Below, piece after piece: positions 21,595-35,960 of a stretch of DNA of 37,602 nt; positions within the stretch are counted from its first letter, which is position 1; every line of letters begins with the position of its first letter. The stretch is from Arenicellales bacterium (lineage in GTDB: Bacteria; Pseudomonadota; Gammaproteobacteria; Arenicellales; JAANXG01): contig JASJAT010000040.1 of the NCBI GenBank assembly GCA_030066885.1, positions 1-37,602 on the forward strand. The letters run 5' to 3'. The notes under the pieces were generated by a model that had not been told where the DNA came from, made no database searches, and saw only the letters and a program-made list of their open reading frames with translations. Both the position numbers and the translations under genes were made by a program.

Positions 21595-22251
21595 ATGAAA
21601 AGAGATTTACGTCCATCCATCGGCTGGTCACGCCTGACCCAATATTGGGGATCGGGATTCACCTTGATTGAACTCATGGTGGCGATAGCTGTGGCGGCCA
21701 TTTTAATCACCCTGGCTACACCGAGTTTCCGCGTCCTAATCCAAAACAATCGGATTTCAGGTGCCGCCAACGATTTCGTATCGGTGTTTAACCTAGCCCG
21801 GGCCGAGGCAATCAAACGTGGAGCAGTCGTCTTCGTTTGCCGAACAGATGATCCACAGGCCAATCCACCGGACTGCCAGCGGGCAAATGACGCAGTGCAT
21901 GACGGTAATTGGTCGAATGGCTGGCTGATGTACGCCGTGCCAACCTCGGAGATAGTCAGTCTCAGGAGTCCTAACTACGACTACATCGATGGTACCGACA
22001 CAGTGGTGCGGTTAGGAGAAGGCCTGACTGGGGATGTCCGCATTACCTCGGACGCCGAGGGCAATCAATTTCTGGGCTACAACGCCGATGGCACATTATT
22101 CATGGATCCCGCAACACCTGGCGAGGCTAGATACGCGGTTTGCGACGATAGAAACGAATCTGCAGGTCGGCTGATTCGTGTTCCAGTTGCAGGCCGTGCC
22201 AGCGTTGATAACACGACGACAGCTACCGACAGCGATTGTTCACCGACATGA
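21595..22251 (+). CDS. fimT: Minor pseudopilin FimT/FimU (GspH family)
   Basis: This is a type IV minor pilin of the GspH/FimT family, a part of the priming complex that starts pilus assembly and sits near the tip. The prepilin peptidase site is clear: a 21-residue leader ending GSG, then FTLIELMVAIAV with Glu5, followed by a hydrophobic alpha1 helix. The motif RAEAIKRGAVVFVCR is typical of GspH/FimT. The C-terminal domain has three spaced cysteines. The ATG at 21595 has GGGAA about 8 nt upstream. It opens the first minor-pilin operon, and its stop overlaps the pilV ATG by 4 bp. Confidence 0.93.
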   Translation: MKRDLRPSIGWSRLTQYWGSGFTLIELMVAIAVAAILITLATPSFRVLIQNNRISGAANDFVSVFNLARAEAIKRGAVVFVCRTDDPQANPPDCQRANDAVHDGNWSNGWLMYAVPTSEIVSLRSPNYDYIDGTDTVVRLGEGLTGDVRITSDAEGNQFLGYNADGTLFMDPATPGEARYAVCDDRNESAGRLIRVPVAGRASVDNTTTATDSDCSPT

Positions 22252-22760
22252 AGATTTATCATCGAAAAACATCGTCTTTGAAAAACCACTGCAAGGGGAC
22301 ATCACTGATTGAGGTCATGGTGACAGTGGTCGTCCTCGCTATCAGTCTCATCGGTATTGCCGGGTTACAGATATTCGGTGTCCGTTATAACCACAGCGCT
22401 TATCTGCGCTCACAGTCGACCATGCTGGCTTACGACATCCTCGACAGGATGCGGGCTAACCGGGCGCAGGCGGCAACCACGAACGCGTATTTGATGGGTT
22501 TTGGCGATTCAATCCCGTCGCCGACGACGGACTGCTCGAATGTGGGTCAGACTTGCTCGCCCTTTGAAATCGCCCAATACGATCTCTCGCAATGGGCAAC
22601 TGCCGTCGCCAATGTGTTACCCGATGGTGAAGCACAGATTCAAATACAGGATCTGCCCGACCGACGAGTTTATACCGTTAGCCTGAAATGGCGCGATCGC
22701 AGGGACACGAATGACAACCAAGAAATCATCACTCCATTTGTATATCGCGCTGAGTTGTGA
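22248..22760 (+). CDS. pilV: Type IV pilus minor pilin PilV (copy 1)
   Basis: PilV is a minor pilin of the PilVWX-FimU priming complex. I chose the ATG at 22248, which overlaps the fimT stop (ATGA) and gives 170 aa; an in-frame TTG at 22236 is less likely. The leader of 17 residues ends CKG, then TSLIEVMVTVVVLAI with Glu5. MLAYDILDRMRANR after the helix is the usual PilV landmark. Its GTGA overlap with pilW indicates coupling. The equivalent gene in the second locus is at 30193-30864. Confidence 0.92.
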   Translation: MKIYHRKTSSLKNHCKGTSLIEVMVTVVVLAISLIGIAGLQIFGVRYNHSAYLRSQSTMLAYDILDRMRANRAQAATTNAYLMGFGDSIPSPTTDCSNVGQTCSPFEIAQYDLSQWATAVANVLPDGEAQIQIQDLPDRRVYTVSLKWRDRRDTNDNQEIITPFVYRAEL

Positions 22761-23962
22761 GCCAAGACATGACCATGAAATATACACGTATGAATAGTAT
22801 CAACCGTGCCCATACCAGCCTCGGTTTTGGTGTAATCGAATTGATGGTGGCTCTCGTGATCAGCATGTTCTTACTGGCCGCTGTGTCCACAGTTTACCTA
22901 AGCAGTAAACAAACCTTTAACACCAGTAATAACGTTGCCAGAATCCAAGAAAACTCTCGTTTTGCCCTGCACTTTATGAACCAGGATCTGCGCATGGCTG
23001 GATTCGCAGGGTGCACCCGGAATATCAATAGCATTCTAGACGTGACTGCATCGGCTTACGATGCCAACTTGTACGATCCGAGCCAAGTCGTGGGTGGTTG
23101 GGAATTCACCGGCACCGCACCAGGTGATACCTATGCGCTCACCACCCTCGATCCGGCTAGCGCCAGCGCTGGCAGTTGGACCGGCATGGGGGCAAGTGTA
23201 GTTTTACACGCTGATCTCAGCAGCCGCAATCCGGTCCCGGGCAGCGATGTACTGGTTGTTAAGCGAGCTAATACGCCCCTAGCCGTAAGATTTGACGCCA
23301 CCTGGGGGCCAAGTGGAAGTCAGTTTGACATTAGAGACGGACGACCGATCGATCCAGCGAACACCAGTAAACGGCTTCCCCCTATCGACCAATTTGATCT
23401 GCTAGTCCTCAGTAACTGCCAGCAAGCCGATCTCATACAAAACACAGACAGTAATCCGGATAGCACGGGTAAGATCGGCCGCGTTGCCGGCGCGGGTGTG
23501 CCGGGCAACTTTGATCCCGCGGCGAGTCCTTTGAGTCAAGCCTACGATGACGCCACAGACATCTATGCCTTTACCAGCCATGCGTACTTTGTCGCGCCTG
23601 GCAATGACGGCAACCCTTCTCTTTTCCGGCTTTCCTTTTCAAATGGACAACCTGCTGCGGGTGAAGAACAGGAGCTGGTGGAAGGTGTTGAGAATATGCA
23701 GGTGCTGTACGGCGAAGATACTACCGGTGACGATATCGCCAACAAGTACGTTGCGGCGGATGACGTCGCTGACCCCACTGCAGTTGTTGCAGTGCGTATC
23801 GGCCTTTTAATGCGGGCGATCAGTCATAACGAGGACTTCATCGATGAATCGCAAAAACAGTTTTTTATCGCCGACAACATAGAGATTCAACCGATTGTCG
23901 ATCCGAATCACCTCCGGTACGTCGCAAGCTCCACCATTCAACTGCGCAACCTCGGCCTGTAG
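22757..23962 (+). CDS. pilW: Type IV pilus minor pilin PilW (copy 1)
   Basis: This is a PilW-family minor pilin of 401 aa, large as usual for this family. The site is SLG then FGVIELMVALVISMF with Glu5, followed by ARIQENSRFALHFMNQDLRMAGFAG, the conserved segment just after alpha1. I use the GTG at 22757, which overlaps the pilV stop; in-frame ATGs at 22769 and 22775 would shorten the leader from 23 to 19 or 17 residues and are equally plausible. PilW and PilX are thought to couple PilY1 to the pilus tip. Confidence 0.92.
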   Translation: MSQDMTMKYTRMNSINRAHTSLGFGVIELMVALVISMFLLAAVSTVYLSSKQTFNTSNNVARIQENSRFALHFMNQDLRMAGFAGCTRNINSILDVTASAYDANLYDPSQVVGGWEFTGTAPGDTYALTTLDPASASAGSWTGMGASVVLHADLSSRNPVPGSDVLVVKRANTPLAVRFDATWGPSGSQFDIRDGRPIDPANTSKRLPPIDQFDLLVLSNCQQADLIQNTDSNPDSTGKIGRVAGAGVPGNFDPAASPLSQAYDDATDIYAFTSHAYFVAPGNDGNPSLFRLSFSNGQPAAGEEQELVEGVENMQVLYGEDTTGDDIANKYVAADDVADPTAVVAVRIGLLMRAISHNEDFIDESQKQFFIADNIEIQPIVDPNHLRYVASSTIQLRNLGL

Positions 23963-23975
23963 GTCTGTCGACATC

Positions 23976-24674
23976 ATGAAAAAGCAACAGTTCAAATCCA
24001 TACTCGAGCAACAGGGGGTGGCACTCCCGGTTGCATTGATATTCCTTTTAGTGTTGACCGTACTCGGCGTCAGTTCGTTGGGTACCAATGTTTTCGAAGA
24101 GAAAATGGCGGCAAACAGCCTTAACCGCGAGCTCGCTTTCCAAGCCGCAGAAGCGACCTTACGTGAAGGTGAACGTCATGTAGAAGCGACTTCCGATATT
24201 TTCTTGCAAGTGTTTTATGACGGTGGCTCCGTAGATCCCAACGGTGCCGCGCCGCCCAACGACGGTGACGGCTGTGCTAATGCTTACTGCACGCCGACCC
24301 ACCAGGACGCTGTCTTTGATCCAGCTAAGATACCGGGTGATTCTGGGTATCTGTACGACAGGTGGGTTGAACTCGATACGTCCACCGACCCGAATAACCT
24401 GCAGGTGTGGTCAACGGCCGGTCGCCACATCGAGTACACCAACTTCAACGCGCTCGGCCTCAACAGTGCGCCAAAGTACATCATCGAATTCATGGGGCAT
24501 TGGGTGCCGCCTACTGGATCGGCTTGTGATGGTGTCGATGCAGACCTGTTACCTGACGCCCCCAACGACGTATGGCCTTACTGTCCGAATGATCCAGGCA
24601 TGTATCGAATTACAGCGTTGGCCGAAACCGCGGCCGGTGCACGAGTCATGCTGCAATCAACCTACCGTAAATGA
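23976..24674 (+). CDS. pilX: Type IV pilus minor pilin PilX (copy 1)
   Basis: This is a PilX-family minor pilin. The ATG at 23976 gives 232 aa and a 14-residue leader (ends EQQG) before VALPVALIFLLVLTVLGV. As usual for PilX, and unlike the other pilins, there is no Glu5, which fits a tip position. ELAFQAAEATLREGE is a typical PilX landmark. Longer in-frame openings start inside pilW and are rejected. At the C-terminus TALAETAAGARVMLQSTYRK matches the family's closing strand. It follows pilW by 13 nt and is followed after 15 nt by the secreted small protein. Confidence 0.92.
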   Translation: MKKQQFKSILEQQGVALPVALIFLLVLTVLGVSSLGTNVFEEKMAANSLNRELAFQAAEATLREGERHVEATSDIFLQVFYDGGSVDPNGAAPPNDGDGCANAYCTPTHQDAVFDPAKIPGDSGYLYDRWVELDTSTDPNNLQVWSTAGRHIEYTNFNALGLNSAPKYIIEFMGHWVPPTGSACDGVDADLLPDAPNDVWPYCPNDPGMYRITALAETAAGARVMLQSTYRK

Positions 24675-24689
24675 CTGACGGAGGTAACA

Positions 24690-24983
24690 ATGCGTAATTT
24701 ATCTCGTTTTTTTATTGCTTTAACTGTTTTCATCATAGCGTCAACTCCGTCATTGGCACAGTTGCCCCACGTCCTCGTCACGGAAGTTCGTAGCGTGGAG
24801 GCAGACCGAATGATACTGCCCGGGGGAAAAGAATTACCCGTACACATAGAAGAAGACGAAACGTATGGCCCAGGGTTGGATAACTACCCGATGTTGCTCA
24901 GGGTCGGTTATATCGATCTGGCGCGCGTGCATTTAGCGCGAGGGGTAGTCGTAAAAGTCGAAGTTTTAGAAATGTACCAGTAG
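24690..24983 (+). CDS. Small secreted protein between pilX and pilY1 (possibly PilY2-like)
   Basis: This 97-aa protein has a clear signal peptide (basic start, hydrophobic core, cut after SLAQ or SLA near residue 23) and a mature part of about 74 residues that looks all-beta: LPHVLVTEVRSVEADRMIL, GGKELPVHI, and a final HLARGVVVKVEVLEM. The ATG has an excellent ribosome site (CGGAGG, 5 nt spacing). I do not recognise it with certainty. In Pseudomonas a small protein, PilY2, lies next to pilY1, and the size and beta-rich pattern would fit, although there it follows pilY1. No counterpart exists in the second locus. Confidence 0.7.
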   Translation: MRNLSRFFIALTVFIIASTPSLAQLPHVLVTEVRSVEADRMILPGGKELPVHIEEDETYGPGLDNYPMLLRVGYIDLARVHLARGVVVKVEVLEMYQ

Positions 24984-25007
24984 TTTGTACTGCGGAAGGT
25001 GATCAAC

Positions 25008-28000
25008 ATGCGTATTCGTCCCAATACCTTATTAGCGACAACCATATTGCCTACGGTGCTGTTGCTGGCATCGTTCACATCTCTGGTCGTGCCGTCGCCC
25101 GTCCATGGCCAATCCATCGGGAATTTCCGCTCGATTCCACCCACGTTGGAAGAGATTGTGGACCCGAACGTCATGATCAACTTGTCGGTGGAAACACCGA
25201 TGCAAGGGGCGGCATACAACGACCATTTCGACGCAGCCGATCCAAGCTATTGCGCCAGTGGAAGACCGGCTAAGGAAAGTGGGGATGCGATCGGAACGTG
25301 TTACGAGAGCACCAAAGAGTTCATCGGATACTTCGATTCGGAAAAATGTTACCAGTACAGCAGCAGCAACCAGCGCTTCGAACCTGTCGGTGGTACCAAC
25401 GGTGCTTACGAATGTGTTGGTGCCAACGATCCGTATTGGAGTGGTAATTTTCTCAACTGGGCCACCATGACCGCTATCGACGAATTCCGTTGGGCGCTCA
25501 CCGGCGGCAATCGGTATACCGATACGGCTTCTGAAACTGTGCTGGGACGCACCAATATGGGCCTCAGCAATGGCCACAACTGGTTTCCAGTAAAAAAGCT
25601 TTCTACCTCGATCAACGTAGATCCCTCCACTGTCACACCATACACCGACAGCACCCTCTACTTCACCAGCTATGACTATCGATTGAAGGTGGGCACCAGC
25701 ACTGCCTCCAGCAACCGCGCCAATAATCTCTATGTCAGGGTTCTGGTGTGTGACGACAATGCTGGACTGGAGGATTTCTGTATTCAATATCCAGATGGCA
25801 ATTACAAGCCAGAAGGACTCATGCATACCTACAGCGACCGTATGCGCTTTGCGGTAATGAGTTATCTAAACAATCCCTCCACAGGCCCTAGCCATGGACG
25901 ACACGGCGGCGTCTTGCGCTCAAATATCAAATACGTCGGCCCCGAGCAACCGAAGACCGGCGGTGGAGTGGAAACCAATCCCAATGCCGAGTGGGATATC
26001 AACAACGGTGTGTTCTTCGTGAACCCGAACCCGACAGATGCAGCAAACAGCGGTGTCGCGAACAGCGGTGTGATTAACTACATCAACAAGTTCGGCGCCA
26101 ACGGGTACAAAAGCTATGACCCCATCGGGGAGCTTTTCTACGAATGTATCAACTACTTCAAGAACCGTGGACCCACAACCGACTTCACCGTGGGACTCAC
26201 CCAGGAAGAGAAGGATGATTTCCCAGTTGTTATGAACTGGGAGGATCCGATTCTGTTCGAGTGCCAGAACAACTTCATCGTCGGTATTAACGACGCCAAT
26301 CCCTGGGAAGACAAGCGTCTGCCCGGTACTCCGGTGACTAGCCAAACGTATCAAGGGTATAACCTACGCGGGTCGAGTAATGACTGGGGCAACCCCAGCA
26401 ATTCAGATCCTGACTACAGCGTGCTGGATTGGACTAATTTGGTCGGTGAGCTGCAGGGCATCAATGGGACCAATCGAGACGTCGGCTGCGTGCCTGGGGA
26501 CTGTGACATGAACTGTAATTCAAAGTTCGTGAACCAGCTGGGCTACGCGATAGGAACCTGCCCTTACTCACCAAAACAAAATTCTTACTTTATTGCCGGC
26601 TTGTCTCACTATGCCAATACGCAGGATATCCGTAGCGATATCGATGGCAAACAAACGATAAAGACCTTCATGGTCGACACGCAAGAGTACAACGCCACAC
26701 CATTGGTGGGTGAAATGAACATGTTGTGGCTGACCGGAAAATACGGTGGATTCGAAGAGAAGAACTTCGTCGATACCAACTCCGACGGCAACGACAACGA
26801 ACCCGATCAAGCCGAGGAATGGGATACGGATGGCGACGGCAATCCAGATAACTATGTCTTGGCCAGCCGCCCGGAAAAATTGGTGGATGGCCTGGTTAAC
26901 GCCTTCGAAACTATCGACAAGCGTTTGAGCGCCGGTAGCGCAGCGGCAGTGGTGGCGAATACCGCTTCCGGTATCGGGCAGATTGTCCAAGCCCTGTATC
27001 AACCTATATATAGCGATACCAATCCCACGACAAAGGTCTTTCAAAGTGTCGAATGGGTGGGCTTAATGCACTCCGTTTTTATCGATGAGCGCAGTTTTCT
27101 GCGAGAAGATACCAATGAAAACGACGCCCTAGACGACTACGGCACCGACTATGTGGTCAATATCTATTATGACGTTGCCTTAGCGCGTACCCGGGTTGAG
27201 CGGTACAACTATGATGAACCGACAGACACCCTGACTTTAAACGACGTAGTAGAGATGGATGAACTTAAAACCATATGGAACAGCCGAGACGAGCTTGCAG
27301 CGCTGGACAACGATTCCGTCAAGACACAACGGAATTACACCTCCAAGATCGATGCTACCAACACGCGTTACATCATCGCTGGTGTGGATACCAGCCATGA
27401 TCCAGGTGACAACAAAACGTGGGGGAATATCAGTCCAAGTGAAGTGATCAGTTTTGAAGAATCCAGTATCAATGCCGGCAACTATCGCTTTTTCAGATTC
27501 GGTAATGAGAACAAGGTCAAGAAACTGGTTAATTTTATACGGGGTCACGAGGACCCCAGCACGGGCTACCGCACGAGAACCATAGACTACGATACCGATG
27601 GAATTAATGAAGTCTGGCGCCAAGGCGATGTCGTGCATTCATCCCCTATCGTCGTGGTGGCACCACGTGAGGGGTACGACACCGTGTACGGTGATAATAC
27701 CTATGCTGAGTTTCGTGAGCAGTATGCCGACCGGCGCCAAGTGGTTTACTTCGGCGGTAACGACGGCATGGTGCACGCCATCAACGCGGGTTTCTGGGAT
27801 TCGGCCAATTCGGAGTTCAAGCTTAAACTCGGTTCTGAAACCGAACACCCGCTGGGCTCTGAGCTGTGGGCCTATATTCCCGGCAACCTGTTGCCGCACC
27901 TTAAGTTTCTATCAGAGCCTAACTATCCGCACGTGTACTATGTAGATGGGCCTGCTCGTTCATTCGACGCGAATATCTTCACTCCGGATGCGACCCACCC

Positions 28001-29315
28001 CAATGGCTGGGGCACGATTTTAGTCATTGGTATGCGCATGGGCGGCAAAAGAATCACCATCGATGCGGATGGCGATCCCGGCACCGGTAATGGGGGTAAA
28101 GAAATCCGGACCCAATCTGCCTATGTGATCCTGGATATCACCGATCCTGAACAGCCGCCACAGTTGATTGCAGAAATTACGCATCCGTCACTGCATTTCA
28201 CAACCAGCCAACCGACATTGGTGAAGAAGCGTGTGCCGGCAGCAGGAAACGACTTCGTCAATCCAACCACCAACGAATGGTATTTGGCGTTTGGGTCGGG
28301 ACCCAATAACAGCAAGCTCAACACAGCGGAAGCCAACCCCGGTCAAAACGGCAGGGTTTTCTTATACGACCTGGTCAACAGGACCTTTGCCGCCGGTTTC
28401 ACAAATGGAAAGAACGTGGTCGACCAAAAACATAGATTTATCGGTAACCCGCGTGCAGTAGATTGGGACACGGATTATGTCGACGATGCAGTATATTTCG
28501 GTACCATCGAGGGTACAGTCTCTGCCCAGACAGGCGATCTTCAGCGTCTGCGGCTGTCTGATGACACCATTCATCAATTAATCGATCCGGGCGAACCGTT
28601 TGTTTCCCGGCCATCTGTTGTCGTAGATCAGCACGGCAGTAACTGGGTACACGCTGGTACGGGCAGGCTGTTTGTCCTGAGCGACAACGAAAATGTCGAG
28701 CAACAGAGGTTCTTTGGCATCATAGAACCCAAGGATTCTAACGGCGACCTGACCTGGGCCACGCTTAACTTGAGCGACTTGCAGAACGTCACCAATGTCC
28801 AGGTATTTGCAGACGGTACTGTCACCGATCCTGACAGCGTGCTGCCTCCGTTACTTCCGGATCCTCCAGGCGATACGTTTGACAACCTGGAAACGCACAT
28901 CAGGGAAAATACCGATGGCTGGTATTTCGACTTTGATGCCAACGGTACCGACCCGAGCACACGTAACGTCACGGAAGCCGTGCAAGTAAGCAGTGTATTG
29001 GTGTTTACGGACTACACACCGTTCCCGGACAGTTGTGAGCCCGAAGGAAACAGCAACCTGTGGGCATTGAACTACAGTACAGGGACAGCAGCTCCGTTTG
29101 GCGCCCTCGGAACCGACCCGGTGACCGATGTCGCTTTCGTCAAGACCGACCTGGGTAAGGGATTGTCTTCGTCTCCCATCATCCACCGTGGTTCAAAGAC
29201 AGGTGGGTCGGTTACAGGTATCACGCAGCAATCGACGGCGTCCGTTACCGGGACGACTATCAACCTGCCTCCGGTACCAACCGGTCGGCAATCTTGGCGG
29301 GAAATCGAGTTTTGA
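25008..29315 (+). CDS. pilY1: Type IV pilus tip adhesin / retraction regulator PilY1
   Basis: This 1435-aa secreted protein is made in the minor-pilin operon and thought to cap the pilus. I use the ATG at 25008 (GGAAGGT 7 nt upstream) rather than a GTG at 24999. A signal peptide ends about residue 31 (VHGQ). The N-terminal half has GNFLNWATMTAID, typical of PilY1, and DxDxDG-like loops (DTNSDGNDNE, DTDGDGNPD). From about residue 870 the C-terminal beta-propeller begins (WRQGDVVHSSPIVV, VYFGGNDGMVHAINAGF, ELWAYIPGNLLPHLKF). The propeller calcium loop is DWDTDYVDD at residues 1152-1160. It ends SWREIEF. The DxSxS MIDAS is not seen where it would be expected, near residue 52 (DPNVMINLSVETPM). 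Confidence 0.92.
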   Translation: MRIRPNTLLATTILPTVLLLASFTSLVVPSPVHGQSIGNFRSIPPTLEEIVDPNVMINLSVETPMQGAAYNDHFDAADPSYCASGRPAKESGDAIGTCYESTKEFIGYFDSEKCYQYSSSNQRFEPVGGTNGAYECVGANDPYWSGNFLNWATMTAIDEFRWALTGGNRYTDTASETVLGRTNMGLSNGHNWFPVKKLSTSINVDPSTVTPYTDSTLYFTSYDYRLKVGTSTASSNRANNLYVRVLVCDDNAGLEDFCIQYPDGNYKPEGLMHTYSDRMRFAVMSYLNNPSTGPSHGRHGGVLRSNIKYVGPEQPKTGGGVETNPNAEWDINNGVFFVNPNPTDAANSGVANSGVINYINKFGANGYKSYDPIGELFYECINYFKNRGPTTDFTVGLTQEEKDDFPVVMNWEDPILFECQNNFIVGINDANPWEDKRLPGTPVTSQTYQGYNLRGSSNDWGNPSNSDPDYSVLDWTNLVGELQGINGTNRDVGCVPGDCDMNCNSKFVNQLGYAIGTCPYSPKQNSYFIAGLSHYANTQDIRSDIDGKQTIKTFMVDTQEYNATPLVGEMNMLWLTGKYGGFEEKNFVDTNSDGNDNEPDQAEEWDTDGDGNPDNYVLASRPEKLVDGLVNAFETIDKRLSAGSAAAVVANTASGIGQIVQALYQPIYSDTNPTTKVFQSVEWVGLMHSVFIDERSFLREDTNENDALDDYGTDYVVNIYYDVALARTRVERYNYDEPTDTLTLNDVVEMDELKTIWNSRDELAALDNDSVKTQRNYTSKIDATNTRYIIAGVDTSHDPGDNKTWGNISPSEVISFEESSINAGNYRFFRFGNENKVKKLVNFIRGHEDPSTGYRTRTIDYDTDGINEVWRQGDVVHSSPIVVVAPREGYDTVYGDNTYAEFREQYADRRQVVYFGGNDGMVHAINAGFWDSANSEFKLKLGSETEHPLGSELWAYIPGNLLPHLKFLSEPNYPHVYYVDGPARSFDANIFTPDATHPNGWGTILVIGMRMGGKRITIDADGDPGTGNGGKEIRTQSAYVILDITDPEQPPQLIAEITHPSLHFTTSQPTLVKKRVPAAGNDFVNPTTNEWYLAFGSGPNNSKLNTAEANPGQNGRVFLYDLVNRTFAAGFTNGKNVVDQKHRFIGNPRAVDWDTDYVDDAVYFGTIEGTVSAQTGDLQRLRLSDDTIHQLIDPGEPFVSRPSVVVDQHGSNWVHAGTGRLFVLSDNENVEQQRFFGIIEPKDSNGDLTWATLNLSDLQNVTNVQVFADGTVTDPDSVLPPLLPDPPGDTFDNLETHIRENTDGWYFDFDANGTDPSTRNVTEAVQVSSVLVFTDYTPFPDSCEPEGNSNLWALNYSTGTAAPFGALGTDPVTDVAFVKTDLGKGLSSSPIIHRGSKTGGSVTGITQQSTASVTGTTINLPPVPTGRQSWREIEF

Positions 29316-29347
29316 GGATGCTTGTTTAAGCACATGTGGGGTAGATT

Positions 29348-29782
29348 ATGAAACGTCAATTCGGCATCACACTAATAGAACTGATGATCGTGCTTGCGGT
29401 CGTTGCGATACTGGGCGGTCTGGCTCTACCATCGTATTTGCAGTATTTATTGCGCTCACACCGTTCGGATGCTTACCAAGCACTGCTGAACTGCGCGGCC
29501 GAGCAGGAACGGTGGTTCACAGCCAACAACACCTACCTGACCGACGCCGCTGCGACAGCAAATGGCCGCTGTGGGACAGTATCCGGTGGAGTCCGCGTGT
29601 CGCCTGAACAGTACTATCAGATTACCGTAGATGCGAGTGGCGGGACATGCACGGCGGGAGTAGGTACCTGTTTCGTCGCCACCGCAACGGCGATCGGTAG
29701 ACAGGCGGATGACGTGGACTGTCCTACCCTGACCATCGACGACAACGGATTACAGCTCCCGGCCGACTGCTGGAGAAAATAG
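29348..29782 (+). CDS. pilE: Minor pilin PilE-like (copy 1)
   Basis: This is a small type IV pilin of 144 aa with a very short 6-residue leader ending FG, then ITLIELMIVLAVVAIL with Glu5, ALPSYLQYLLRSHRSDAYQALL along alpha1, and the AAEQERWFTANNTYL landmark of PilE/ComP-like minor pilins. Two pairs of cysteines (GTCTAGVGTC; VDC...ADCW at the end) would form the D-loop disulfides. TGGGGT lies upstream of the ATG. It ends the first operon, as pilE does in Pseudomonas. It is more likely a minor pilin than the major subunit because of its position and composition. Confidence 0.9.
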   Translation: MKRQFGITLIELMIVLAVVAILGGLALPSYLQYLLRSHRSDAYQALLNCAAEQERWFTANNTYLTDAAATANGRCGTVSGGVRVSPEQYYQITVDASGGTCTAGVGTCFVATATAIGRQADDVDCPTLTIDDNGLQLPADCWRK

Positions 29783-29787
29783 ATCAC

Positions 29788-29836
29788 CTGTAGGAGGCGC
29801 GCCTCGCGCCGATCGCTGCGATGGCGCTGCTCCTAA
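29788..29836. repeat. REP-like palindrome
   Basis: Imperfect palindrome beginning CTGTAGGAGGCGCGCCTCGCGCCGAT and ending GGCGCTGCTCCTA, starting 6 bp after the pilE stop. It has the size and GTAGGAG...CTCCTAC layout of gammaproteobacterial REP units. It is part of the gene-free 29783-30192 stretch, which also holds the 29843-29908 inverted repeat, the 29967-30057 pair and a T-rich segment (30085-30160) likely to include the promoter of the second operon. Confidence 0.65.
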
Positions 29837-29842
29837 ATACTG

Positions 29843-29908
29843 CTAGTAGCGAGTGTCTTGTATCTAGTGGCTAGGAAAACAACTAACGGATACCAAACTC
29901 GCTACTAG
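29843..29908. repeat. Inverted repeat with CTAGTAGCGAGT arms
   Basis: CTAGTAGCGAGT at 29843-29854 has its exact reverse complement ACTCGCTACTAG at 29897-29908, and similarity continues beyond the arms. A related sequence (AGTAGCGAGT at 20486-20495, followed like this one by CTTGT) overlaps the stop codon of the rnfB-like gene, so this seems to be a small interspersed repeat family. Confidence 0.65.
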
Positions 29909-29966
29909 TCGCTAACCACAGGCTACTGTTATACGCCATTACGTAGAGAACAATGCGGCGTAATCT

Positions 29967-30057
29967 CTGTAGGAGGCGCACCCACGCGCCGATAGGCTGA
30001 AAATACGGTACCCTCGCCACTTGTTTGATCAAATCGCGGCGAGGCGCCGCTCCTACA
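29967..30057. repeat. BIME-like pair of inverted REP units
   Basis: The left unit (CTGTAGGAGGCGCACCCACGCGCCGAT from 29967) and the right unit (AAATCGCGGCGAGGCGCCGCTCCTACA, ending at 30056) are in opposite orientation with a roughly 37-nt spacer. It is the best-preserved member of the REP-like family in the window. Such pairs are normally spread by a RAYT (Y1 HUH) transposase; none is encoded here. Confidence 0.75.
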
Positions 30058-30192
30058 CGCTTCTGGCAAAGAAAATACAACCGTACCTGTCTTTTCTGTT
30101 TTTATTCTTAATTTAACCCTTGCCCCCCTACTCTTTTCTCTGATTAAATAACGAGGTCATGTAAGTATTGATTCAGGATGGAGGAGTACTTG

Positions 30193-30864
30193 GTGACGTA
30201 CAGCACCAATACAGCGAAAGGATTTCGGTATCACGCTTGTCTTCAGTCAGATCCATACTCTGGTTCTGATTTCAATTTCTCTTTTTTCACAACCCACCAT
30301 GCTTTGGCATCAAGCCCGGTGATGCATGGACAAGCAATCCACACCTGTCGGTTGAACTACAACCCGCCTGGACAGCGTTGTAATGAATTCGCTGTTCAAC
30401 GATTGAACCAGAAATCCCGCCAGATTGGAGCAAGCCTGGTTGAAGTCATGATATCGCTGCTCATCTTGTCCATGGGGTTGCTTGGTATGGCAGCTCTACA
30501 AGGTTTGGGCACGCAGTACGGAAACGAAGCCTATTTCCGCAGCCAAGCTATCGTACAAACTTATGACATGATCGATCGCATGCGGGCCAATCCATCCGCG
30601 GTAGCGGAAGGAAAGTATGAACTAGATCCCATTCCAACCTCGTTCACAACGGACTGTATTCGTAACAAATGCGCCACGGGCGACCTCGCCAACTTCGACT
30701 TAGTCAACTGGAATCAGCTCAACAAAGAGCTGCTACCCGCCGGTGCGGGCTCAGTCACTCGACAAGGCGGTGTCTATACCGTACGGGTAACGTGGCAAGA
30801 AGACGCTAATGATGACGGTACAGCTGAAACCCAGAGCTTCAGCTTGAGCGCACGCTTATGGTAG
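30193..30864 (+). CDS. pilV: Type IV pilus minor pilin PilV (copy 2)
   Basis: This is a PilV-family minor pilin: RQIG then ASLVEVMISLLILSMGLLGMAALQ with Glu5, and IVQTYDMIDRMRANPSA as in copy 1. The start is uncertain. The GTG at 30193 has a strong Shine-Dalgarno (GGAGGAG, 6-nt gap) but gives a 79-residue leader, far longer than normal. An ATG at 30178 lacks spacing for a ribosome site. GTG/ATG at 30319/30322 would give about 35 residues, and a TTG at 30403 would give a normal 9-residue leader (MNQKSRQIG). It overlaps pilW by 7 bp. Confidence 0.88.
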   Translation: MTYSTNTAKGFRYHACLQSDPYSGSDFNFSFFTTHHALASSPVMHGQAIHTCRLNYNPPGQRCNEFAVQRLNQKSRQIGASLVEVMISLLILSMGLLGMAALQGLGTQYGNEAYFRSQAIVQTYDMIDRMRANPSAVAEGKYELDPIPTSFTTDCIRNKCATGDLANFDLVNWNQLNKELLPAGAGSVTRQGGVYTVRVTWQEDANDDGTAETQSFSLSARLW

Positions 30865-31826
30865 CGAACACCTTTCGGCGATACAGCTGTCTGCAGTCCG
30901 GGATCACATTGGTTGAGCTGATGGTTGCGCTGGTCATCGGCCTGGTATTGTCGAGCGCCGCAATAATGATCTATTCCAATAGCAAACATGCGTTTGGTGT
31001 ACAGGTCAATATTGCTAACGTGCAGGAAACCGGGCGCTACGTTTTACAGTTAATGCAGGAAGATGTCCGAATGGCTGGCTATTGGGGATTGAACTATCAA
31101 CCCAAGCGCATCAGGGCCGCGGAATCGATAATCTTGAACAATGAATGTACTAACGGCTGGTCGACGGATATCACCAAGCCAATCCATGTCTCGAACAATG
31201 ACAATTCGAGTTATGCAGAGTGTATCTCCAACGTCGACTACAAAGCAGGCACCGATATCCTGACCGTTAGACACGCATCGAGTACACCCGTCGCCGAGGA
31301 TGATATCGTCGCTGGTGACGTTTACCTTCACACTTCCCTAACCAGTGGCACATTGTTCGTCGCAGACGCTGACGGCACCATAGATACCGGCATCGAGGCA
31401 CAAGAATCCCCTGTATCCAATCACCGCTTGTTAGCCCATGCTTACTATATACGGCCATGGTCACGGACTGTGGGAGATGGTATCCCTACGCTGGCCAGAA
31501 AAGTGATCAGTGGGACGAGCGTGGTAGATGAGCCGCTAGCCGAATACGTGGAAGACTTACAGGTGACTTTGGGACTGGACATGGACTGGGATGGCAATGT
31601 TGATCGTTATGACAATGACGGCATCGCGGCCGCTGAAACAGACCATGTTATGACAATTATCATCGAAGTACTTATCCGCGCACCCACCGGAGAAGCCGAT
31701 TACACAAATGACAAAATTTATCAACTGGGTGACCAAGCTGGATCTACCCCGGCAGACAATTTTCGCCGTCAAGTTTTTCGGGAAACGATTTTCATGCGCA
31801 ACTGGACGGGTTTAGGATCTGTATGA
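30858..31826 (+). CDS. pilW: Type IV pilus minor pilin PilW (copy 2)
   Basis: This is a PilW-family pilin of 322 aa, about 80 residues shorter than copy 1. The leader of 15 residues ends LQSG, then ITLVELMVALVIGLVLSSA with Glu5, and ANVQETGRYVLQLMQEDVRMAGYWG matches the copy 1 segment after alpha1. The C-terminal part contains DMDWDGNVDRYDNDG, an acidic DxDxD-like loop, and RRQVFRETIFMRN, which resembles the closing strand of PilW. The ATG overlaps the pilV stop by 7 bp, and the stop overlaps the pilX ATG by 4 bp. Confidence 0.92.
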   Translation: MVANTFRRYSCLQSGITLVELMVALVIGLVLSSAAIMIYSNSKHAFGVQVNIANVQETGRYVLQLMQEDVRMAGYWGLNYQPKRIRAAESIILNNECTNGWSTDITKPIHVSNNDNSSYAECISNVDYKAGTDILTVRHASSTPVAEDDIVAGDVYLHTSLTSGTLFVADADGTIDTGIEAQESPVSNHRLLAHAYYIRPWSRTVGDGIPTLARKVISGTSVVDEPLAEYVEDLQVTLGLDMDWDGNVDRYDNDGIAAAETDHVMTIIIEVLIRAPTGEADYTNDKIYQLGDQAGSTPADNFRRQVFRETIFMRNWTGLGSV

Positions 31827-32332
31827 GCCACCAAATGAAACCGAGACTGCAGCAGCAGGGGGCCGTATTGGCCTTGACCTTGATTATCTTGCTCGTACTG
31901 ACGGTAGTGGGCGTAACGACGATGAATGCTTCCAGTATTCAAACTTTCCTCGCTAGAAATACTCAGTTCAAACAGATTTCCTTCCAGAACGCGGAAAGCA
32001 CGCTAGCGGCCGGTGAAGCGGCCTGGAATACGAAGATAGAAACCTGCTTCAGCGACGCCTCCAAATGTACCACCGACCTAACACCCCCCTTCATCAGCGA
32101 TGTGGACAACATTGATTGGAGTTCCATAGACAGCGAAGGGACCACACCCTATGGAAAATACGTGGTGGAATACCTAGGTTGGCGCCCGCTAGCGGGTGAG
32201 AATGATAAACGAACAAACCTATACCGTATCACCGCCCTCGGTTTGGGCCCGAATTCCCAGTCGACCACTTACGTACAAACTATGTTTAGAAAATGCATCA
32301 AGAATGACGGGGTGCCCTGTCCGGATACTTAA
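31823..32332 (+). CDS. pilX: Type IV pilus minor pilin PilX (copy 2)
   Basis: This is a PilX-family pilin of 169 aa, 63 residues shorter than copy 1. The 13-residue leader ends QQQG, followed by AVLALTLIILLVLTVVGV without Glu5, as expected for PilX. QISFQNAESTLAAGE aligns with ELAFQAAEATLREGE of copy 1, and LYRITALGLG...TYVQTMFRK aligns with the closing strand. It is translated from an ATG overlapping the pilW stop and followed after 21 nt by the truncated PilY1-like gene, whose product it probably presents at the tip. Confidence 0.92.
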   Translation: MSHQMKPRLQQQGAVLALTLIILLVLTVVGVTTMNASSIQTFLARNTQFKQISFQNAESTLAAGEAAWNTKIETCFSDASKCTTDLTPPFISDVDNIDWSSIDSEGTTPYGKYVVEYLGWRPLAGENDKRTNLYRITALGLGPNSQSTTYVQTMFRKCIKNDGVPCPDT

Positions 32333-32353
32333 CCCGCAATAAGGAAGCTTGTT

Positions 32354-35296
32354 ATGGAGACGAAGAATTGGATTAAAAGGGAAATCTACTGTGTGGCCTT
32401 GCTTACATTCTTAGCCATACCCTGGTCACCAGGGCACAGTGCGGGGATATACAGCACCATTGGTTCACCGGCGTTGTCTAAGTCCAACTTAGCTGAAGGC
32501 GGCGGCAGACTATACGAGGTGCGCTTCAACCCGGTGGAATTCACCGGTGACCTCATTGCCCGTTCTATCGGCGAAGACGGTAAATATACACCCGATGAGC
32601 TCGATGCCGATGGAGATCTATTGACCTTCAACGGGATTTGGCGGGCCCAGTACACTGTAGACAAACAATCTCAAAGACACGGTGGGGGTAACAGCGACTC
32701 TCGAATCATTATTACCTCGGGTAGCAATGGTGTCCAACTAGTCGGACGTAGATTCGATTGGGACCACAGCAATAACGGTTTGACCTTAGACGATGGTGCT
32801 AACGAAGATCTGAAGGCGCTGGTAGATCCATCCGCAACCGAAGCAGAGAAAAAAGACCAAAACTATAACGATCCGATCGTGAGTTGGGTCCGGGGCAGTG
32901 ATGAGTTTGAGGGCACCAGCAATATTGAATTACGTCAACGCCAGCACCCGCTCGGTAGCATTGTCCACTCCTCACCCCAATATGTTGGCGCACCATTTCA
33001 ACTATATACTTTTGACAACTACAAGTCTTTTCGAAGTGGCCTATCTTCGCGGACTCCCATGGTTTACGTCGGCAGCAACATGCTGCATGGATTCAATGCA
33101 AACGATGGGACCGAGGTTTTTGCCTATATTCCGCATGAAATCCTAGGTAGATTACAAGGGTTTGCGACCCAGGACTATGTCGAGACGTTTTTAGTCGATG
33201 GAACGCCCACCGTAGCCGATGCCCACGGTAACTTTGCCACGTGCAACAGCGACCCTTGTTGGCGAACTGTCCTGTTAGGAAGCTTGGGCGTAGGGGGTAA
33301 ATCGATCTTCGCCCTGGATGTAACCGACCCGGTCTCGCTCATCACCGACGTAATCGAGCCTGAGGCTGCGGCTGCGACGAATCTGTTTCTGTGGGAATTC
33401 ACCGACCCCGACCTCGGATTCACTACAGCGCGCCCTATCGTCGAACGCTTAGGTGATGGTACCTGGGTGGCTATCTTCGGTAATGGTCGCGGTACGGGTA
33501 AGGCGACCTTGTTTGTCGTCGATATTACCTCGGGTGGGCTGATTCAAAAACTGGAGATACCTTCCAAGGGGAACGGCAATGGACTGTCCTCACCGATCGG
33601 TTGGGACAGTGATTTCGACGACGATGTTGATTATATCTATGCGGGCGATTTCGAAGGCAATATGTGGCGCTTCGATTTTTCCGACGCGACTGGAAGCGGT
33701 GGCGCAAGCATCTCTCTCTCAAAGACTCCTTTAGTGTCGGTCACGGATCCGAACACGGGTATTGCTCTACCCATTACCGCAGCGCCAGTGGTCTCTCTCC
33801 ACCCAGATGACGGTTTGTTGGTGTATTTCGGCACCAGTGGTGAAGGCCAGCACAACAACGGACTATTCGGTGTCCAGGACGAGGGGATGGCCCTTGGCGT
33901 GGATCCCCCGCTGGTTGTACGAAACATCGCCCCTGCTCTGCATGGCCCTAACGATGTGGACCTGTCCCAAAGCAAATACCGGATCATCGCAGCGACGACA
34001 ACGCCCGAGAATCCTGTCGGTTGGAAGCTCGAGTTACCGGTGGGAGAACGCATACTGAATGATCCTATTCTGAGCAACAAGCGGGTCAGTTTTACCAGTA
34101 CCAACGGGATAGTCGATGACTTCAATCAAAATTGGTTTAGCGGTGTCGATTTCTTAACTGGCGGAGCACCGGTCCTACCGTTTCTCGACCTTAATAATGA
34201 CGGCCTGTTTGATAACAGCGACTTGCTTGTCGATATCGCCAACAAGGTCAACCAGTCTGGCACGGTGGTTCCGATAGGACGGTTTCTTGATGGGGGCGTC
34301 GTATCGGGACCCGTCTCAGCAAACGTCGATAACGGTCGCGATGTTGTATTTATCACTCAGGGCTTGGAGTCCTTGGAGGTCAATCAGGCTATGTTCGGTC
34401 TACCTGGCGGCCATTTCGACCAGGATACTTTCTCCATATCGGAAGCGCTAACTCATGAGCACACGCACGCATACGATGACAAGTACCATATCGATGGCGT
34501 CAATATGCTCAGTCCTGGAGGCGTTATCGCCAAACCGCCTGCCGTCGAAAGTGCGAGCGGGATCCTGAGCCAAAATCGAGCGCTACAAGAACTGCGTGAT
34601 GAACTTAACGATCAAGTCCTCTTGCGGGTAATCAACCCCTATTCCGTAGATACGAAGAAGCTGGCCGCCCAGCGCGCCACCCGGGGCCTCGACGGCAGCG
34701 TGGCCCCCCACGCGACTGTCTTTTACCAGTGCGGTCGGTCTGGTGAACGTTACATTATGCCAGCACCGAGCTTTAACTCATTGCCTCAGTCAGATCGAAC
34801 TTGTGTACTGAAGGATATCCATGAGCTGCGGATTAAGTTTAAAAGTATCAAAGCGCTGCGTGTGACGACGCCTGAATGTGTACAGGCAAATGAAACGGGG
34901 CCAATCTTGGGAGATCCTGCGGTCGGGTTCAACGGGTCTTATCGAGACGGCGCCATTACAGTGCAGGCGGTTCGCATGAGTGACAACGAAGTAGTATGGG
35001 AACACGTCAATTATGAACATCTGGATGATGCAAACATCCGGCACGACCTGGTTCCCAACGATAGGCCTGGTGGAAGCCGGGTACAGTGTGGTCTGTTCAA
35101 CGAAGACTTGCGGGTTTACGTGGATTTAAAAATATTGAATACCGACGATAGCGTACCCGAGCTTGAGCCGACTGATAGCGCTGGTAAGGGCATCGTCACG
35201 GTGTCGACCCAAGGGACACAATCGACCAAACGTATCGATATCATGCAATCTAAGTTCAACGATGGCCGAGTCTCCTGGCGTGAAGTCTTGAAGTGA
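32354..35296 (+). CDS. Short PilY1-like protein (beta-propeller type, N-terminal half missing)
   Basis: This 980-aa secreted protein is related to the C-terminal half of PilY1. The ATG has AAGGAAG 6 nt upstream, and a signal peptide ends near residue 30 (SPGHSAG). Soon after comes RFNPVEFTGDLIARSI, normally found just before the propeller, so the N-terminal half is absent. The propeller is seen in GSIVHSSPQYVG, MVYVGSNMLHGFNANDG, EVFAYIPHEIL and WRTVLLGSLGVGGKSIFALD, with a calcium loop DSDFDDDVD at residues 418-426 followed by YIYAGDFEGNMWRFDF. After it comes a roughly 400-residue extension with a dockerin-like DLNNDGLFDNSD loop and the motif HEHTHAYDDKYH at residues 701-712. It ends SWREVLK like PilY1. 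Confidence 0.88.
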   Translation: METKNWIKREIYCVALLTFLAIPWSPGHSAGIYSTIGSPALSKSNLAEGGGRLYEVRFNPVEFTGDLIARSIGEDGKYTPDELDADGDLLTFNGIWRAQYTVDKQSQRHGGGNSDSRIIITSGSNGVQLVGRRFDWDHSNNGLTLDDGANEDLKALVDPSATEAEKKDQNYNDPIVSWVRGSDEFEGTSNIELRQRQHPLGSIVHSSPQYVGAPFQLYTFDNYKSFRSGLSSRTPMVYVGSNMLHGFNANDGTEVFAYIPHEILGRLQGFATQDYVETFLVDGTPTVADAHGNFATCNSDPCWRTVLLGSLGVGGKSIFALDVTDPVSLITDVIEPEAAAATNLFLWEFTDPDLGFTTARPIVERLGDGTWVAIFGNGRGTGKATLFVVDITSGGLIQKLEIPSKGNGNGLSSPIGWDSDFDDDVDYIYAGDFEGNMWRFDFSDATGSGGASISLSKTPLVSVTDPNTGIALPITAAPVVSLHPDDGLLVYFGTSGEGQHNNGLFGVQDEGMALGVDPPLVVRNIAPALHGPNDVDLSQSKYRIIAATTTPENPVGWKLELPVGERILNDPILSNKRVSFTSTNGIVDDFNQNWFSGVDFLTGGAPVLPFLDLNNDGLFDNSDLLVDIANKVNQSGTVVPIGRFLDGGVVSGPVSANVDNGRDVVFITQGLESLEVNQAMFGLPGGHFDQDTFSISEALTHEHTHAYDDKYHIDGVNMLSPGGVIAKPPAVESASGILSQNRALQELRDELNDQVLLRVINPYSVDTKKLAAQRATRGLDGSVAPHATVFYQCGRSGERYIMPAPSFNSLPQSDRTCVLKDIHELRIKFKSIKALRVTTPECVQANETGPILGDPAVGFNGSYRDGAITVQAVRMSDNEVVWEHVNYEHLDDANIRHDLVPNDRPGGSRVQCGLFNEDLRVYVDLKILNTDDSVPELEPTDSAGKGIVTVSTQGTQSTKRIDIMQSKFNDGRVSWREVLK

Positions 35297-35501
35297 AAGG
35301 GAAAGATTAAGGAGCCTTCTGATCAATTTCAAACTTGGTCTTGACGGTGAGACGAAATCTGCTGGTCTCATTCAGAATACAGGTCATTGTGCTGAGATGT
35401 TAATCACACCGGAAGCGTATGAGACTACAAGCCGAATCAATCCAGTAAAACACACTGTTCTGGATTGCCGCGCCCCCCGGACCAAGTCCTGGGTCCTCGC
35501 A

Positions 35502-35960
35502 ATGGCCCGGGCTATTTTTGGGCAGGAACTAGCTAAGAATAAGGGCTTTACTCTGATCGAAATGGTTGTCGTGCTTGCGATCTTGGCGATTATCGTGAGT
35601 ATTGCCCTACCGAATTACCAGGATTACCTGAAACGAAGTCGACGCAGTGACGCGATGATTGCGCTAGAGAGAATCGCCAACGAACAGGAACAGTTTTATT
35701 TCGATTGGAATACCTACACCGATTCTTTCGAGGACCTCGATATGAGTTCCTTAAGCCCCGAGGGTTTTTATAGATTGAGTATAGAAACCGCGAACGACAC
35801 GTTGTTCATCGCTCGCGCTATTCCTGTCGCCGGCAGCAGCCAATTGGGTGATGGTGGCTTTGAACGGCACTCCACTGGGAAGGAAGGCTGGGATCGGGAT
35901 GGAGACGGTATATATGAATGCGACTGGCAGGACGCTGCCCGAGCCGGAGGCGGCTGCTAG
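35502..35960 (+). CDS. pilE: Minor pilin PilE-like (copy 2)
   Basis: This is a type IV pilin of 152 aa from the ATG at 35502; the open frame extends back to an ATG at 35397, but that would give a 50-residue leader. The leader used, 15 residues ending AKNKG, precedes FTLIEMVVVLAILAIIVSIALP with Glu5, then YQDYLKRSRRSDAMIALERIANEQEQFY. A DRDGDG calcium-like loop and only two cysteines (ECDW and the final residue) suggest a terminal disulfide loop. It closes the second operon, 205 nt after the PilY1-like gene, a gap with only a TGAGAC/GTCTCA inverted repeat. The stop codon is 4 bp before the 134-bp element. Confidence 0.88.
   Translation: MARAIFGQELAKNKGFTLIEMVVVLAILAIIVSIALPNYQDYLKRSRRSDAMIALERIANEQEQFYFDWNTYTDSFEDLDMSSLSPEGFYRLSIETANDTLFIARAIPVAGSSQLGDGGFERHSTGKEGWDRDGDGIYECDWQDAARAGGGC

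Follow-up and report, generated by a model that had tools for sequence, protein, structure and literature searches.

Two operons for the tip of a type IVa pilus, each with its own PilY1, follow one another in the genome studied here. Is one of them a recent copy of the other, or have two separate sets been brought together, and what would a cell do with both?

Gene content of the two loci

The window (the whole stretch of DNA that was analysed, 37,602 nucleotides) lies on contig C154 of G000, a draft genome of 4.1 Mb with 250 contigs and 89% completeness, from which further minor pilins or pilus parts may therefore be missing. Locus 1 (fimT-pilV-pilW-pilX-small ORF-pilY1-pilE, 21595-29782) and locus 2 (pilV-pilW-pilX-pilY1-pilE, 30403-35960) are placed head to tail on the forward strand between nth and a gene with a FIST domain, with metG and nth upstream of the tandem and the FIST gene downstream. 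The genes for PilV, PilW, PilX, PilY1 and PilE come in the same order in both, which is the order of a type IVa minor pilin/PilY1 tip operon. Within each locus the genes overlap or are closely spaced, the widest internal gap being the one before pilE2, and all the reading frames are intact. Most of the families were recognised by Pfam or NCBIfam with two exceptions: the 97-aa protein of locus 1, without a match in either database, and PilY1-1, which stays under the cut-off of Pfam T4P_PilY1 (22.3 bits vs 28.1). The propeller of PilY1-1 matches PDB 3hx6 (2.8e-8), and so does that of PilY1-2 (2.7e-48).

A first-pass annotation of this DNA had described two complete tip operons in tandem that keep the gene order and differ in the lengths of PilW, PilX and PilY1, and all of this is borne out by the coordinates, the frames and the mostly expected Pfam families (Table 1). 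It had also considered the prepilin sites of both sets intact, and indeed FimT, PilV, PilW and PilE have either N_methyl matches or a GxxxxE motif visible by eye. Glu5 is absent from both PilX proteins, which is not a sign of damage because the relatives compared share this absence. Two of the open reading frames of locus 2 extend upstream of their likely starts, which are probably the TTG at 30403 for pilV2 and the ATG at 35502 for pilE2.

Table 1 Genes of the two tip operons and the gap between them
Feature	Coordinates	Strand	Length	Matches and remarks
fimT (GspH-type minor pilin)	21595..22251	+	218 aa	Pfam GspH 1.4e-15, N_methyl
pilV1	22236..22760	+	174 aa	NCBIfam TIGR02523 2.2e-25, over cut-off; Pfam Tt1218-like
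pilW1	22757..23962	+	401 aa	Pfam PilW 3e-25
pilX1	23976..24674	+	232 aa from ATG 23976	Pfam PilX_N and PilX C-term
Protein with signal peptide	24690..24983	+	97 aa	Between pilX1 and pilY1-1; orthologue in G002, 62%
pilY1-1	24999..29315	+	1438 aa from GTG, 1435 from next ATG	Canonical architecture
pilE1	29348..29782	+	144 aa	Pfam ComP_DUS 1.3e-19
Intergenic gap	29783..30402	.	~620 nt	Two GTAGGAGGCGC-type repeats and an inverted copy
pilV2	30403..30864	+	ORF of 228 codons, open from 30178	NCBIfam TIGR02523 3.2e-25; Pfam Tt1218-like
pilW2	30858..31826	+	322 aa	Pfam PilW 9.4e-19
pilX2	31823..32332	+	169 aa	Pfam PilX_N and PilX
pilY1-2	32354..35296	+	980 aa	Pfam T4P_PilY1; inverted architecture; propeller at residues 176-623
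pilE2	35397..35960	+	ORF of 187 codons	Pfam ComP_DUS 5e-16

The gap between the loci contains, at 29789-30057, the GTAGGAGGCGC-type repeats and their inverted copy (84% complementary over 25 nt), an arrangement resembling REP elements. The search of the window against Rfam gave no match, and no sigma-70 promoter consensus was found upstream of either locus. Separate control of locus 2 is possible. A single transcript of both loci, which would lead to mixed tips, is also possible, there being no recognisable promoter ahead of locus 2.

Origin of the two copies

A recent duplication in tandem, with rapid change afterwards, would leave the same gene order and the head to tail position. Such duplicates exist elsewhere, as illustrated by the tandem operons of G095, G332 and G123, which are sisters in our trees. 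In the window the paralogues of the two loci have 30-40% identity, and no direct DNA repeat of at least 40 nt is common to both. We built maximum-likelihood trees of PilW, PilY1, PilX, PilE and PilV from the operons of three genomes of the same genus, to which we added more from the family, the order and the class. The window copies fell in different clades in all five gene trees, each copy with its own relatives in other genomes. Forcing them to be sisters was rejected by the AU test for PilW (p=1e-5), PilV (3e-9), PilE (2e-7) and PilX (1.5e-64), and is contradicted by the PilY1 tree, where both copies are found in separate clades with 100/100 support. Considering the AU tests and the absence of a shared repeat, we reject a recent duplication, for which practically no chance is left. 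Judged from the trees and from the comparison of the site among related genomes (below), two old cassettes are stably paired in the tandem, in agreement with the first-pass annotation, which had spoken against a recent duplication and proposed separate trees as one way to check it.

The genes of locus 2 cluster with copies from G002, G001 and G003, and their next relative is the operon of G039, a genome of another family of the same order, in the PilV, PilW, PilY1 and PilE trees (the PilX tree has no resolution on this point). Joint inheritance of the whole cassette would give this result, the same outside sister in four trees. The genes of locus 1 cluster with those of G002 and then, in the case of PilW and PilX, with G047 and G051, both belonging to the same family as G039.

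History of the site and tempo of change

The synteny check suggested in the first-pass annotation was positive, since in the same-genus genome G002 the two operons occupy the same nth|FIST site with their order unchanged. Identity between the two genomes is 64-80% for locus 1 and 50-57% for locus 2. The orthology of locus 2 between them has weak support (92/77 in the PilW tree, 81/55 in PilV, 93/46 in PilE and 96 in the tree of the propeller), and it is possible that locus 2 was swapped by replacement in place. In G005, G006 and G008, which belong to other genera of the same family, the nth|FIST site is empty and the metG region runs to the FIST gene; they have instead, beside ispH-lspA-ileS, an operon whose PilY1 belongs to the PilY1-1 type. 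This second type of site is in turn empty in G003, where the gene after lspA is of the Fur family and homologous to the one found upstream of the G008 operon. At that place (L208:12681-13660, G003:C225) the Fur-family gene comes directly after lspA and ispH is missing from its usual location; a search of G000-G004 with an IspH query, run without a positive control, gave no match. G001 (8% contaminated, its extra copies being used with care) and G003 have no orthologue of PilY1-1, and their locus-2-type operons are found elsewhere. One of them, on G003:C89, forms part of another tandem, in which a third-type PilY1 with its pilE precedes a locus-2-type operon that carries a fimT of its own. This pattern of occupied and empty sites across the genus and the family indicates that, within the genus, cassettes have come and gone and have changed position.

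Between G000 and G002, dN was 0.38-0.49 for locus 2 vs 0.14-0.28 for locus 1 and 0.12 for metG, with synonymous sites saturated. The faster divergence of locus 2 could possibly come from relaxed constraint, and a weakly constrained relic heading for loss would explain it. However, the frames of locus 2 are intact in both species, and the locus-2-type genes of the close sister pair G001/G003 have dN/dS of 0.11-0.55, that is, below 0.6 and indicative of purifying selection. Besides, the single PilY1 detected in G282 and in G132 is of the PilY1-2 type. We regard a relic as very unlikely, and the decay of locus 2 that the first-pass annotation had contemplated finds no support in these data. The values suggest constraint together with faster change, as would be expected of a surface-facing tip.

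Across the class, the PilW profile matches 194 of 276 genomes, and about 43 of these 194 have at least two matches (hand count from the table). Five further tandems were read, in G095, G116, G123, G187 and G332, and in G187 the second operon is without fimT, as in the window. From the genomes compared, tandem or multiple tip sets are a recurrent arrangement. One genome of the class, G092, has eight PilW matches, an unusually large set of minor pilin operons. The tandem of G095 (L140, G095:C14), from another family, is a recent duplicate of the whole operon in which the PilE copies are identical and PilX and PilY1 have diverged, a pattern suggesting that conversion or selection acted unevenly over its length.

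An inverted PilY1

The less expected result of the analysis concerns PilY1-2, described as short in the first-pass annotation. It is a rearranged form and not a shortened one. PilY1-1 has the canonical architecture, with 843 aa ahead of the propeller and 67 aa behind it, whereas PilY1-2 has 175 aa ahead (signal peptide and a pre-propeller module) and 357 aa behind, ending in SWREV, a Trp-containing tail as in other PilY1. It has no N-terminal adhesin region and departs from the canonical layout, being a PilY1 homologue of different architecture. The family has been defined by a C-terminal propeller plus variable N-terminal domains (PMC13190605), and we came across no account of the inverted form in the openly readable literature.

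Mapping of the propeller by profile in 40 PilY1 separated two classes, nearly all the proteins having 400 residues or more ahead of the propeller and some 55-115 behind it. Among 38 complete PilY1, picked from the Pfam hit list across the class, a long post-propeller region was present in two (G132 and G185). A profile made for this region found it in five other genomes of the class (370 searched), and all five proteins have the same inverted layout. The post-propeller regions are related to one another by BLASTP, an HxHxYDD-like string occurring among them only in this genus, G039, G282 and G204. In a tree of the propeller only, 11 of 11 inverted proteins were found in one clade (SH-aLRT 98), which requires a single change compared with 10.4 in shuffles. 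On these phylogenetic grounds the inverted PilY1 is a subfamily of one origin. As the inverted form is the sole PilY1 detected in G282 and G132, it is probably sufficient for pilus function.

The post-propeller region of PilY1-2 had no Pfam match. Its best match in the PDB covered 26 residues of an unrelated protein and was weak (0.005), and was discarded as a known domain; the single-sequence fold prediction of PilY1-2 was unusable (pLDDT 31). Both propellers contain a DxDxDxxxD string, EF-hand-like and a putative calcium site, at residue 418 in PilY1-2 and 1155 in PilY1-1. No Pfam VWA was detected at E up to 1, nor DxSxS in the first 350 residues, in either PilY1; an N-terminal VWA domain with MIDAS is not universal in the family.

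Comparison with known systems

Gene content and order in the window are those of fimU-pilVWXY1Y2E of Pseudomonas aeruginosa, a bacterium not known to have more than one minor pilin set. The propeller of its PilY1 (3HX6) aligns with that of PilY1-2, which in comparison is without the N-terminal region and has ~300 residues more before the C-terminal tail. Several tip sets in one bacterium are already known, and our two-tip interpretation follows these precedents. Among the closest is Myxococcus xanthus, whose clusters 1, 2 and 3 (PMC8833165, PMC9109919, PMC13190605) are, like the loci of the window, several complete sets with divergent PilY1 and one type IVa machine. There, cluster 1 and cluster 3 are each sufficient for motility (PMC8833165), and a phosphorelay exerts divergent control over the operons of pilY1.1 and pilY1.3 (PMC9109919). 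The clusters of M. xanthus are described as separate loci, whereas those of the window are adjacent and the second one is without fimT. Furthermore, its PilY1 proteins differ in the N-terminal domains ahead of a C-terminal propeller, unlike PilY1-2 with its extra domain after the propeller. One of the M. xanthus sets comes with an extra periplasmic protein, TfcP, and by analogy the 97-aa secreted protein of locus 1 may be an accessory periplasmic factor for PilY1-1.

Xylella fastidiosa also has two operons of the same gene families (pilEVWX/fimT/pilY1) in one proteobacterium, located in different regions of the genome (PMC9956873), while in the window they are adjacent. Kingella kingae has two alternative tip adhesins, PilC1 and PilC2, loaded by a single fimTpilVWXE set (PMC12607826), whereas here the whole set is doubled.

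FimT deserves separate mention. The first-pass annotation was right that the second set is without fimT, none being found in locus 2 of either G000 or G002, and had made locus 2 dependent on the single FimT of locus 1. In that wording, the dependence finds no support. A further prepilin gene is cut by the end of contig C196, and its 52 visible residues fit the FimT profile best (33.5 bits vs 23.4 for PilE). In addition, the locus-2-type operon of G039 has its own fimT, as has that of G003:C89, and the one of G003:C306 has none. FimT/FimU appears as an optional member of these related operons, present in locus 1 and absent from locus 2 of G000 and G002. In Myxococcus, FimU matters least among the four minor pilins (PMC8833165). 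Sharing of FimT between the loci is plausible.

One machine and two tips as the favoured reading

Besides the ATPase of the type II secretion locus (C129), we found a PilT/PilU-like pair (C177), a PilB-like ATPase split over the ends of contigs C118 and C199, and, next to trp genes on C243, an additional unassigned ATPase. Type II secretion aside, a single set of ATPases for retraction and assembly is in keeping with one machine shared by both loci. Two PilA genes, each of 162 aa, are present on C36 (L112:7042-7530) and C94 (L113:3315-3803), with near-identical C-terminal halves, one of them beside genes resembling pilR and pilS, which means that the shaft may not be single.

We favour one machine with two tips. 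The reading is drawn from the three sets of Myxococcus and the two of Xylella, and we find it fairly probable that two complete cassettes from separate old lineages each build their own tip and priming complex on the same PilA shaft and PilB/PilT machine. The interchangeable tips of the first-pass annotation are accordingly kept as the best reading by analogy, with the single ATPase set on their side; the shaft may not be shared, given the two PilA genes. The PilY1-PilX-PilV-PilW-FimT complex of each cassette would start the polymerisation of the same PilA shaft and, served by the same PilB/PilT machine, the cell would produce pili with two different tips. In the model for Myxococcus, PilY1 has its N-terminal domain outermost and contributes a beta-strand to PilX through a short stretch at its C-terminus, with PilV, PilW and FimU located below (PMC11046646). 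Placing our proteins by analogy with this model, the ~840-residue N-terminal region of PilY1-1 would be the outermost tip of the first pilus. The second would present the propeller, with the extra domain between propeller and C-terminal tail, beside the PilX joint, the tail itself being expected to dock on PilX.

The two PilA genes could alternatively mean two separate fibres, each minor pilin set priming its own major pilin, and several fibres have been considered by the Xylella authors (PMC9956873). Yet the PilA proteins, by their C-terminal halves, look like recent copies, whereas the minor pilin sets diverged long ago, and only one ATPase set was found; we consider two fibres unlikely. A small chance, slightly better than that of two fibres, goes to a division of labour by process, with one set devoted to twitching and adhesion and the other to natural competence. 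This has been proposed for Xylella, where the two operons give mostly opposing mutant phenotypes and FimT3 is the DNA receptor (PMC9956873). The PilE of the window match ComP_DUS, which would point to competence, but both copies do, and the match does not discriminate between them. The GRxR motif, relevant to FimT in the context of DNA uptake, is not found in the FimT of locus 1.

Significance of the paired tip operons

PilY1-2 might represent a separate mode of building a tip, although we advance this tentatively. The outer N-terminal adhesin would have been dropped and the variable domain placed between the propeller and the PilX-docking tail, leaving the propeller or a side-mounted domain to face the surface, and cells with the pair could switch between end-on and side-on tips. 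The inverted subfamily would put to the test the current model, which always places the N-terminal domain of PilY1 outermost and has the C-terminus dock on PilX. With sets of separate origin side by side, this pair bears on the reasons why some bacteria maintain more than one tip set. Tip adhesins built in opposite ways and encoded next to each other offer a chance to test whether the identity of the tip sets the binding target of the pilus.
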